A DNA stretch of 42,542 nt, from positions 1 through 42,542 of the forward strand of contig CAMYNR010000013.1 in NCBI GenBank assembly GCA_947259715.1, written 5' to 3'. A program made the translations under genes and the position numbers. The notes under the pieces are model-generated. The model did not search any database. It was given only the letters and a program-made list of their open reading frames with translations, and was not told the origin of the DNA. Shown in pieces: positions 5,912-42,542 of this stretch (position 1 is its first letter; the number at the start of each line of letters is the position of its first letter). The DNA comes from an uncultured Desulfuromonadales bacterium (GTDB lineage: Bacteria > Desulfobacterota > Desulfuromonadia > Desulfuromonadales > Geopsychrobacteraceae).

Positions 5912-5991
<80 letters not shown>

Positions 5992-6026
5992 AAGCCGATC
6001 CTCCTTTTCGGAGTGACTATAGATTC

Positions 6027-6103
6027 GGCGGTGTAGCTCAGTTGGTTAGAGCATGCGGCTCATATCCGCAGTGTCCGGAGTTCGAATCTCTGCACCGCCA
6101 CCA
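6027..6103 (+). tRNA. tRNA with CAT anticodon, probably elongator Met
   Basis: This is a complete 77-base cloverleaf. Acceptor GGCGGTG pairs with CACCGCC, anticodon stem TGCGG/CCGCA holds loop CTCATAT, and the T-loop is TTCGAAT, with A73 and encoded CCA. The acceptor GGCGGTG resembles elongator tRNA-Met of several bacteria. A CAT anticodon is also carried by tRNA-Ile2 before TilS converts C34 to lysidine, and tilS is the next gene. Ile2 therefore cannot be excluded by eye. It is cotranscribed with the initiator tRNA, 35 bases apart. Confidence 0.93.
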
Positions 6104-22397: not shown

Positions 22398-22417
22398 TGT
22401 GACAAAGCGCCTTGGGC

Positions 22418-23059
22418 TCAGCCTTTTTCGCACTCTGTCTCTGGCTGGATTTTCTTAGCCGGCGATTTAAGCAGGTCAAACAGCAATTTCAGCAGGCCGA
22501 TGACAGCCATTGTCGAGAAAAAAAGGGCTCGCCCCTTCACCGGCTGCTTCCCCTCGCTGATAAAGATGACATTCTCACTGGCCGGAACATTCATCTCCTC
22601 AAGCAGTTCAAGCAATTTCTGCCGATTGGAATCGGCTACCAAGCTTTCCGCGGTCATCCCGGTCAATTCCCGTTCAGCAGTCAGGATGAATTGGTTTTCA
22701 ACGAGGAATTCGCTGCGCTCAGTATCATTATCCAGGTGGAAATAGTAGCTTGTCAGCAGGTCGACAATCTCCGGGTCGCGGGTTTCGAACCAGACATGGA
22801 TTTCACTTGCCTCTGGTGATGCCTTGAGGGGGACCAGAAAGGAGTCGATTTCCATGGTTCCAGACATGTTGATCGCCTGCAGCAGATCCTGGTGACCGCC
22901 AGTCACGGTCAGCCATTCCCGGGGTGCTCCGTTCCTTTCCAGATCGCCGATGCTGATCGGCACAGGCTCTGGATTACGCAGCAGGATGCGAAGGTCGGCA
23001 TAACCGAGCCAGCCGAGTATCAGGCAGATCACCAGCAGGGTAACGCGGAAACGTTTCAT
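22418..23059 (-). CDS. Hypothetical protein with N- and C-terminal TM helices
   Basis: The 213-residue protein has an N-terminal hydrophobic helix (about residues 5-22) and a second one near the C-terminus (about 177-196), followed by a basic then acidic tail. The middle is about 150 soluble residues, mixed alpha/beta by eye, which with two flanking helices would lie in the periplasm. It has no cysteine in the soluble part and no motif I recognise. It is transcribed away from the actP gene end, with a terminator between them. Its start region shows GAGGAATAGCA before ATG, a fair ribosome site. Function unknown. Confidence 0.65.
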   Translation of the reverse strand: MKRFRVTLLVICLILGWLGYADLRILLRNPEPVPISIGDLERNGAPREWLTVTGGHQDLLQAINMSGTMEIDSFLVPLKASPEASEIHVWFETRDPEIVDLLTSYYFHLDNDTERSEFLVENQFILTAERELTGMTAESLVADSNRQKLLELLEEMNVPASENVIFISEGKQPVKGRALFFSTMAVIGLLKLLFDLLKSPAKKIQPETECEKG

Positions 23060-31692: not shown

Positions 31693-31721
31693 CGAATCTC
31701 TCGTTGGCAATTAGTTTCCAT

Positions 31722-31826
31722 CCGAAAACGGCCCTTTTTCGCAATCTCTGCGTCAATCTGCGGCCTTGTTTGTGCGGCGTACGATGTACGCCTCCGCGCA
31801 ATGCCTTGATTTCCTTGACCTTGCTA
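31722..31826. repeat. Repeat-like intergenic block at the maf 3' end
   Basis: About 100 bases between maf and yggS hold a perfect hairpin GGCGTAC-GAT-GTACGCC (31776-31792) flanked by GCG/CGC. It also holds a TTTTTCGCAATCTCTGCG stretch unlike the neighbouring coding text. It resembles dispersed intergenic repeats that I associate with related genomes, though no second copy is in this window. Its left part supplies the early stop of maf. Boundaries are approximate. Confidence 0.5.
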
Positions 31827-39935: not shown

Positions 39936-39990
39936 CAGAATTTGACTGTCCTTCGAGAGTAAAAACGAAAATAAAAACTAATTTTTAAAA

Positions 39991-40017
39991 ATTATAGGCT
40001 TATTAACAAGTTGTCAA
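39991..40017 (-). promoter_or_regulatory. Promoter with perfect -35 and -10 boxes, 15-bp spacer
   Basis: On the minus strand TTGACA (40017-40012) and TATAAT (39996-39991) are both perfect consensus but only 15 bases apart, two short of the optimum. Transcription would begin near 39984, about 50 bases before the TPR lipoprotein ATG. Confidence 0.55.
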
Positions 40018-40140
40018 GTTTGAAACTGGCTGGGAGGTCAAGATTTCCGCGCTGAAAGGGTGCTGCCCCCGGCATTTTATTGTGTTATGCTCCCCGGGTT
40101 AATTTTGCTGGTCAAGCGGTCAGCAGAGAAAAGGACCGGA

Positions 40141-41367
40141 ATGAAGGAACAAAACAGACCCCGCCGACCCGAGCTACTGCTGCCAGCCGGAGATATGGCG
40201 AAATTGAAGACAGCGATCCGTTTCGGCGCCGACGCGGTCTACCTGGGCAGCGAAACATTCGGCCTGCGTGCCCACGCCGGCAACTTCACTGTCGCACAGC
40301 TAAAAGAAGCCCGGGAGCTGACCCGGACGGCCGGGGTGGCTATCTATTTAACTTTGAATGCGTCCTTGCGACCGGCTGAATTCAATGCTCTGGAAGACCT
40401 TCTGGAGGAGCTGAAGCCGCTCGACCTGGACGCGTATATTCTTGCTGACCCAGGCGTTTTAAGCAGCGTCCGCCGGGTCGATCCGCAACGTCCCATTCAT
40501 ATCTCAACCCAGGCGAACAGTTGTAATCCGCAGACCGCTGAATTCTGGCGTGGCAATGGCGCCAGCCGGATCAACCTGGCCCGCGAGCTAACGCTGGCCG
40601 ATATCCAGAGCTTTCGACCGCTGACCGAGGTTGAGCTGGAGTGTTTTATCCATGGGGCGATGTGCGTTGCCCATTCCGGTCGCTGTTTATTGTCAGCCGC
40701 CCTGTTGGAGCGCAGCGCCAATCGTGGTGATTGTGCTCAGCCCTGTCGCTGGCATTACAGCCTGGTCGAGGAGACCCGGCCGGGTCAAAGCTTTGCCATC
40801 GAAGAAGATCAGCATGGCAGTTATATCATGAACAGTCGCGACCTGTGTCTAATCGAGCAGCTACCGCAGCTGATTGCCGCCGGAATCGACAGTTTCAAGG
40901 TCGAGGGGCGGATGAAGAGCCTTTATTATGTGGCGACCACCGCCCGTATTTACCGCGATGCCATCGATCGGCTCACAGTAGACCCCAGCGATTTCGATCC
41001 AGGCTGGCGCGAAGAATTGGAGAAGGTCAGTCATCGACCCTATGACAGTGGCTTCTTGCTCGGCAGGGAAGATGCAAAGATCCATCCGCTTGACACCCAT
41101 TATATCCGCACCCACGACTTTGTCGGCTTTGTCCGCCAAAATGAGGCAGGGCTCTGGGTCGAGGGGCGCAATCGCTTTCTGCTTGGAGATGAGGTCGAGT
41201 TGATCGGCCCGCAGATGCGCCAGGAAAAATTCGTCGTCAATGAAATCCTCAACTTCTCCGGTGAGGCCTTAAGCGCCGGTCAACCGAACTCGCAACTGCG
41301 GATCGCGCTGCCCGCCTGGGCCGAGGAGGGTGATCTGATCCGCCGCAAGCGACCATCCCTGCCATGA
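40141..41367 (+). CDS. trhP: U32 peptidase-family protein, TrhP (YegQ) type
   Basis: The 408-residue protein starts PELLLPAGDMAKLKTAIRFGADAVYLG and carries the U32 signature ECFIHGAMCVAHSGRCLLS. It also has the TrhP-like blocks PIHISTQANSCNPQTAEFW and GSYIMNSRDLCLIEQLP. TrhP-type proteins hydroxylate U34 of certain tRNAs using prephenate and an iron-sulfur cluster. Several Cys residues around 210-235 (GRC, RGDCAQPC) fit a cluster site. I chose ATG 40141 (AAAAGGACCGGA upstream); the frame is open back to 40060 but with no ribosome site. It overlaps the next gene by four bases. U32 members also include UbiU/V and RlhA, but the YegQ-like blocks favour TrhP. Confidence 0.82.
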   Translation: MKEQNRPRRPELLLPAGDMAKLKTAIRFGADAVYLGSETFGLRAHAGNFTVAQLKEARELTRTAGVAIYLTLNASLRPAEFNALEDLLEELKPLDLDAYILADPGVLSSVRRVDPQRPIHISTQANSCNPQTAEFWRGNGASRINLARELTLADIQSFRPLTEVELECFIHGAMCVAHSGRCLLSAALLERSANRGDCAQPCRWHYSLVEETRPGQSFAIEEDQHGSYIMNSRDLCLIEQLPQLIAAGIDSFKVEGRMKSLYYVATTARIYRDAIDRLTVDPSDFDPGWREELEKVSHRPYDSGFLLGREDAKIHPLDTHYIRTHDFVGFVRQNEAGLWVEGRNRFLLGDEVELIGPQMRQEKFVVNEILNFSGEALSAGQPNSQLRIALPAWAEEGDLIRRKRPSLP

Positions 41368-42542
41368 AAATCTTTTTGCTGACCAGCTATTTAGTGATTA
41401 CTGCGATTCGTTTTACCCTTGACTGGCTCAATCTGCGCCACCGGCAGACCGTGGAGCGCAAACTGCCGGATGCCTTTGCCGGCCAGATTGACCGGCAGCG
41501 GCTGGAGCGCAGTGAGGCTTACGCTTCAGCCGGGGACCGTTTCAGCCTGGTGGAGGATGGCGTCGGTGTCGTATTGACGCTGCTCCTTCTCTTCGGCGGT
41601 CTGCTGCCCTGGTACGATGGTCTGGTGGCCGGCTGGACGAGCGGGTTTGTCAGCCAGGGCCTGATGTTCTTCGGCCTGTTGCTGCTCGTGCAGATGCTGG
41701 TAGGAATTCCCTTTTCCCTCTACCGCAACTTTGTTCTTGAGGCGCGCTTCGGCTTTAACCGCATGAGCCTGGGCCTCTGGTGTGCCGACCTGCTGAAATC
41801 GCTGCTGCTGGGCGGGGTGCTGTTCCTGTTGCTGGCCGGTGGCGCACTCTGGCTGGTTGCGCTGGCGCCAGACAGCTGGTGGCTCTGGGTCTGGGGATTC
41901 TGGGCGGGAATGACCCTGTTTCTGTTTTATCTCTCCCCTTATCTGATCGAACCGCTGTTTTTCAAAATCTCTCCGCTGGACAAGCCGGAACTGGAGGAAG
42001 AGGTTCGCGAATTGCTCAAGGCTGCCGGTGTTCAGGCCGGCAAGGTCTTGCAGGTCGACGCCTCGCGGCGCAGCGGGCACAGCAATGCCTATTTTACCGG
42101 CATCGGGCTTGGACACTGGCAGTGCGGGCATATCCGCAAACGGCTGATCAAAAGCCAGCTGGTGGCGGTGGTCAGTTGCTATCTGGCATTTATTTTACTG
42201 AAAACCCAGGTTCTTCCAGGCTGGCTGGGGTTGGAACAGTTATCTTTTGCCGGGCAGGTTCTGCTGCTCGGCTGGCTTGCCTCGCTGCTCGGTTTTCTCT
42301 GGACCCCCATCAGCAGCTGGTGGTCACGGCGTCAGGAACGTGAGGCCGATCAGTTCGCCATTGACCTGGTCGGCAGCGGTCGCGAGCTGGCCTCGGGGTT
42401 GGTCAAGCTTGCACGGGAGAACCTGAGCAACCTGTTTCCCCATCCGCTTTATGCCGCGATCTATTACTCTCATCCACCGCTGGTGGAGCGAGTGGTGTGG
42501 CTGGGAAAGCGTTCCCTGGCCGAAACAGGAGCCCTTGCAGCT
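41364..42542 (+). CDS. Ste24-like M48 protein lacking its HExxH motif, 3' partial
   Basis: The frame from ATG 41364 runs off the window end (393 codons seen). It has about five TM helices and the Ste24/CAAX-protease landmarks NFVLEARFGFNRMSL, LIEPLFFKISPL and VDASRRSGHSNAYFTGIG. The third zinc-ligand region RQEREADQFA (Glu327) and the tail NLFPHPLYAAIYYSHPPLVERV are also present. The segment after YFTGIG normally continues for about 30 residues to the catalytic HExxH. Here YFTGIG (ending about residue 248) is joined directly to LGHWQCGHIRKR, so the His and Glu of HE are missing while the frame stays open. Without them a zinc protease should be inactive. It overlaps the TrhP gene by four bases (ATGA). 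Confidence 0.85.
   Translation, partial: MKIFLLTSYLVITAIRFTLDWLNLRHRQTVERKLPDAFAGQIDRQRLERSEAYASAGDRFSLVEDGVGVVLTLLLLFGGLLPWYDGLVAGWTSGFVSQGLMFFGLLLLVQMLVGIPFSLYRNFVLEARFGFNRMSLGLWCADLLKSLLLGGVLFLLLAGGALWLVALAPDSWWLWVWGFWAGMTLFLFYLSPYLIEPLFFKISPLDKPELEEEVRELLKAAGVQAGKVLQVDASRRSGHSNAYFTGIGLGHWQCGHIRKRLIKSQLVAVVSCYLAFILLKTQVLPGWLGLEQLSFAGQVLLLGWLASLLGFLWTPISSWWSRRQEREADQFAIDLVGSGRELASGLVKLARENLSNLFPHPLYAAIYYSHPPLVERVVWLGKRSLAETGALAA

Follow-up and report, generated by a model that had tools for sequence, protein, structure and literature searches.

Missing HExxH segment in a Ste24-like M48B gene close to a contig end: most likely a recent knockout or a sequencing error

The M48B gene and its neighbors

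The stretch of DNA analyzed here (the window) is the entire contig C13, 42,542 bases long, of a draft genome of 2.6 Mb in 209 contigs that is estimated to be 76.7% complete. On the plus strand at its 3' end lies a coding sequence (41364..42542) for a membrane metallopeptidase resembling the Ste24/M48B CAAX proteases, identified by its open reading frame (ORF), its Pfam matches, and its relatives in the PDB, human ZMPSTE24 and yeast Ste24p. Its reading frame starts with an ATG at 41364 and stays open up to the contig end at 42542, which truncates the gene 3' after 393 codons (393 aa). The product scored 180 bits against Peptidase_M48_N (PF16491; cut-off, 27) and 67.1 bits against Peptidase_M48 (PF01435; cut-off, 20.3), with the latter alignment beginning no earlier than position 73 of the 186-position profile. 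The domain order is that of M48B/Ste24 proteins, in which an N-terminal multi-helix membrane domain (PF16491) is followed by the M48 domain (PF01435).

Upstream on the same strand is an ORF (40060..41367) that we take to encode a peptidase-U32-like protein, and that overlaps the M48B start by 4 bases. The U32-like gene adjoins the M48B gene in two congeners, the 4-base overlap is likewise present in the congener G006, and about 13 kb of the last 20 kb of the window is colinear with G006. More widely, a U32-like gene was matched at most 3 kb upstream in 22 of 80 relative loci (the best 80 of 94 confirmed), with one of these matches being weak (42%).

The missing segment

When the window protein is aligned with its relatives, a stretch of 27 residues is absent. 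Close relatives read TGIG-(K)VKRVVLFDTLxEQLxxxELLAVLAHE-LGHW, whereas the window reads TGIG-LGHW. The join lies between the last base of the Gly248 codon and the first base of the Leu249 codon (42107..42108, plus strand), and the deficit of 27 residues corresponds to 81 bases, so that the frame is kept. This placement was obtained from a protein alignment with 18 homologues and from a DNA comparison, and the gap is identical against both congeners. The 18-homologue alignment lacks the loci L091 and L092, which were lost to the ORF extraction rule, and the DNA comparison skipped minus-strand loci. A preliminary description of this DNA had put an in-frame join near 42107/42108, and the open frame (41364-42542), together with the protein and DNA alignments, bears this out. 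Its estimate of the size (about 30 residues, or 85-95 bases) was slightly too large, and its statement that a segment is absent holds.

The segment gone from the window encodes the catalytic Glu together with the first His of the zinc site, as had been proposed, and alignment both to relatives and to ZMPSTE24 agrees on this point. No HExxH occurs anywhere in the window ORF. What remains of the motif is its second His, His251 (42114..42116, plus strand), which lies in an invariant column and aligns to the LGHW of ZMPSTE24. Glu325 of the EREAD sequence (42336..42338, plus strand) is also retained in an invariant column; it is presumably the equivalent of the third zinc ligand, a role that we carry over from ZMPSTE24 and Ste24p. 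The ExxxD motif that contains this third-ligand Glu is present, with both E325 and D329 at invariant columns.

Relatives carry the segment

We compared the window with 80 loci on genome contigs (the best 80 of 94 confirmed), which were fetched by using peptide patterns independent of the missing segment. HExxH is present in the M48B gene of all 80. The preliminary description had considered that HExxH might be encoded at another place in this gene; the window ORF has none.

A search of genomes from the same family gave a similar picture. Matches were found in 39 of 44 genomes; apart from the window's own, 36 matched at both flanks of the gap, and two at one flank only. The residues between the flanks are present in all 36, numbering 27 in 34 genomes, 26 in one, and 23 in one, the last belonging to a remote homologue that is only 32-35% identical. 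The five unmatched genomes, one genome matched in the N part only, and one matched by a C-terminal piece only are uninformative on the gap. Among 41 relatives up to the level of order, 34 genomes besides the window's were matched, each in at least two pieces. In a genus search of 10 genomes, none of them conspecific with the window's, the nearest proteins have identities of 78% over one flank and 85% over the other, and for both flanks the closest match is the same congener, G006. In another genome of the family (G024), the C-terminal stretch matched in the M48B homologue (contig C46, 73124-73528) contains one TGA.

The closest known proteins are the M48B peptidases of Malonomonas and Desulfuromusa relatives, for example, L003 and L017 (the latter from Malonomonas rubra DSM 5091), which are, respectively, 80% and 74% identical to the window over aligned positions. 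The genome G004, from the same genus group, is that of M. rubra DSM 5091, as the middle 300 bases of its locus L085 are identical to those of L017; the window thus probably comes from a Malonomonas-like member of Geopsychrobacteraceae. They share with it a position beside a U32-like gene, the membrane domain, and the ERxAD and SHPxL motifs. However, both carry the 27 residues with HELGH that the window does not.

Outside the gap, the window protein is well conserved. Alignment of 44 homologues, drawn from 44 of the 80 loci, contains 62 invariant columns, of which nine are inside the lost segment and 53 outside. The window retains 52 of these 53, including the remaining two zinc-ligand sites; the single exception is F75, which is L in the window. 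The landmarks on either side of the join are thus kept much as first described.

Additional searches addressed other places where the gap or the missing piece might appear. The pattern GIGxGHW matched 17 of 395 genomes of the phylum, including that of the window, and the other 16 places, read as DNA (nine loci of 3.0 kb and seven of 1.1-1.2 kb), encode no M48 relative (best E value, 0.26). A plasmid search returned three records, all with less than 31% identity. A second copy of the gene, or the missing piece elsewhere in the same genome, was sought by protein, Pfam, and DNA searches; in this 76.7%-complete assembly, these searches gave only the M48B gene and two other M48 genes (on contigs C173 and C164), a result that is not decisive at this level of completeness. 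The gene on C164 looks BepA-like, with an HECAH read by eye. In a full-text literature search, no title among the matches listed concerned a bacterial M48B protein without HExxH.

Predicted structure and expected activity

In the AlphaFold model of the closest intact relative (pLDDT 92), the residues corresponding to the missing segment (249-275) form a strand (250-256), a helix (257-262), and most of a second helix (265-280), and include His274 and Glu275. The model of the window protein lacks the hairpin strands and has a shortened helix (245-253). Its mean pLDDT is 90.5, falling to 64 at residues 241-250, although AlphaFold can score a protein highly after a deletion without this proving that it folds. 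The model shares the Ste24 fold (Foldseek E value of 2.4e-18 and query TM-score of 0.89 to 2ypt_D).

Human ZMPSTE24 (4aw6, 2ypt, 5syt, and 6bh8) and yeast Ste24p (4il3) thus resemble the window product in the fold of its model and match its sequence both before and after the join, but they are zinc proteases with the whole motif. The structure 2ypt is that of an engineered E336A mutant, in which one residue is changed, compared with a loss of 27 residues in the window.

A His-His-Glu zinc site cannot form when one His is gone, and the general base is gone as well. With a zinc ligand and the general base both lost, neither zinc binding nor proteolysis is expected, and from its sequence the product is expected to be inactive as a zinc metallopeptidase. 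It is probably also unstable.

Selection after the join

The preliminary description had called for an assessment of dN/dS downstream of the join, and we found no sign of relaxed selection there. Against the nearest relative, the C part has a dN of 0.083, a dS of 1.20, and a dN(C)/dN(N) ratio of 0.54, values to be read with the caution that dS is near saturation and undefined in several pairs. Over the 16 pairs that include the window, dN(C)/dN(N) ranges from 0.40 to 0.88; among the other homologues, the median over 119 pairs is 0.74 (0.43-1.13), one of 120 pairs having been dropped under the dN limit. Loci L091 and L092 are missing from these calculations and from the trees for the reason given earlier, and L019 and L010 were excluded from both as copies of L088 and L087.

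Trees point in the same direction. The terminal branch of the window ranks 14th in length among 17 in the C-part protein tree, of which it makes up 2.4%, and fifth among 17 in the N-part tree, of which it makes up 5.8%. At columns invariant in the 16 other homologues, the window departs at three of 100 before the join and at one of 55 after it; in a leave-one-out comparison, just two of the 16 other homologues depart at more than three columns before the join. By this measure, it is the N part that is a little more unusual.

Constraint is therefore visible on the window branch, and the branch gives no date for the loss. With no decay after the join, the loss is recent, or it is not real, or the remainder is still selected, and these data cannot choose among the three.

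A probable recent in-frame deletion

Of these possibilities, we lean modestly toward a recent in-frame deletion of 81 bp that makes the gene for a Ste24-like M48B membrane protease null in this strain. Among the three explanations offered, without a preference, in the preliminary description, it fits best, because the sequence downstream of the join shows no relaxation and the gap is found in no relative examined. The observations themselves establish the gap, what it took away, its confinement to this genome among those examined, and the lack of decay in the rest of the gene; the existence of the deletion in living cells, the loss of activity, and the recent date are what we infer from them.

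According to this explanation, the in-frame loss would inactivate the bacterial protease by taking away a beta-hairpin strand, a short helix, and the greater part of the active-site helix, including the first zinc His and the Glu that serves as general base. The remainder would consist of the membrane helices, one His of the HExxH motif, and the third-ligand Glu. Without a His-His-Glu zinc site or the means of activating water, such a remnant would be a null and probably unstable protein. If the deletion is real, a bacterial Ste24 homologue has been knocked out naturally here, and at least one strain can do without this protease.

A possible artefact near the contig end

A lesser but appreciable possibility is that the gene of this strain is intact, and that the join is a sequencing or assembly artefact, produced by a chimeric read or by the false closing of a gap in a thinly covered region near the contig end. 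The join is only 435 bp from the end of a contig in a fragmented genome of 209 contigs, where errors are likelier, and no decay would be expected if nothing has been lost. The last 151 bases of the contig have no other match in the assembly at E ≤ 0.001, and the contig therefore does not end at a repeat; an end of this kind would suit low coverage. When the contig's continuation was sought with the stretch downstream in a congener, the matches were the end of C13 itself and a place inside C63.

Assembly collapse, the form of artefact that had been suggested, is weakened by the data where it would act at a repeat, whereas other kinds of artefact near the contig end are still plausible. In 86 relative loci (with minus-strand loci skipped and at least seven being second copies of the same genomes), the homology between the ends of the 81-bp piece is 0 bp in 49, 1 bp in 36, and 2 bp in one. 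This measure is taken on relatives' DNA, and is thus an indirect guide to the DNA that this strain itself would have lost. So read, it does not favor repeat-driven assembly collapse, as an overlap of 0-2 bp leaves k-mer collapse little to act on; a slipped-strand deletion, like a k-mer collapse, would probably want more end homology than this. No relevant repeats were found in the window near the join.

A chimera of two sources would be compatible with some differences between the two parts of the gene. In the N-part DNA tree, the window stands beside L082; in the C-part DNA tree, it groups, with poor support, with L096, L094, L095, and L082, and in the C-part protein tree, it is with L096. 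GC3 is 0.75 before the join and 0.68 after it. Against an artefact, G006 is nearest by protein for both flanks. Preservation of the frame, which an artefact would achieve with one chance in three, also speaks against an error, as does the clean state of the other compared genes on the contig. Among 17 likely genes in the last 20 kb, compared with one or two congeners, only the M48B gene has a gap in the window of more than five residues. These 17 ORFs were picked by hand; 13 matched both congeners (one only partly in L115), and four matched one. The interval 22412-22819, which gave a 36% match with a stop in one congener only, is probably not a gene.

If the join is an artefact, it usefully illustrates an error that leaves the frame clean close to the end of a contig; annotation would not flag it, because both Pfam cut-offs are still exceeded.

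A retained pseudoenzyme as the least supported reading

We consider it improbable that the product is a pseudoenzyme, that is, a catalytically dead protein kept for a non-proteolytic role, for example, binding substrates or partners in the membrane. Pseudoproteases have lost catalytic residues and kept the rest, as in the window. Conservation of 52 of the 53 other invariant columns, a branch that looks constrained, and a window model that is confident overall would all agree with such a role. The established pseudoproteases of which we know are conserved in lineages, whereas the loss in the window is seen in one draft genome only.

A precedent exists for function of the Ste24 scaffold without catalysis. 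According to PMC9601121, the catalytically dead E336A form of human ZMPSTE24 keeps its ability to restrict viral entry, and its co-precipitation of IFITM3 exceeds that of the wild type. However, the remaining roles that PMC9601121 names in human and yeast require catalysis.

No other lineage examined shares the loss, which was found in none of the 80 loci (best 80 of 94) and none of the 36 same-family genomes with both flanks. In addition, the deletion takes out a strand of the hairpin besides the catalytic residues. The suggestion in the preliminary description that the protein is kept for another role thus draws its support from the lack of decay, and finds none in a second lineage or in the nature of the lost piece. 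A more specific version, in which a Ste24-fold protein with its catalytic strand and helix excised has been retained by this Malonomonas-like species as a membrane chamber or substrate trap without proteolytic activity, is harder still to credit. Since the relatives examined keep the segment, the likeliest readings of the window are a recent knockout of the gene and an error of sequencing, and not a novel type of protein.

Other elements of the contig

Between a divergent gene pair, an A+T-rich intergenic stretch (39969-40025) is 91-95% identical in three congeners; the proteins that flank it are 48-64% and 75-79% identical to those of two congeners. This stretch has no Rfam match and is possibly a shared promoter or regulatory site.

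A dispersed intergenic element (31712-31824) has the core GTTTCCATCCGRAAACGG, with six exact core matches in its own genome. The core was matched in four of the 41 genomes searched, namely, the window's own and three congeners, and weaker DNA matches to the element occur at several places in other congeners. No Rfam family matched it at the gathering score. Finally, two consecutive tRNA-Met (CAT) genes are located at 5912-6103.
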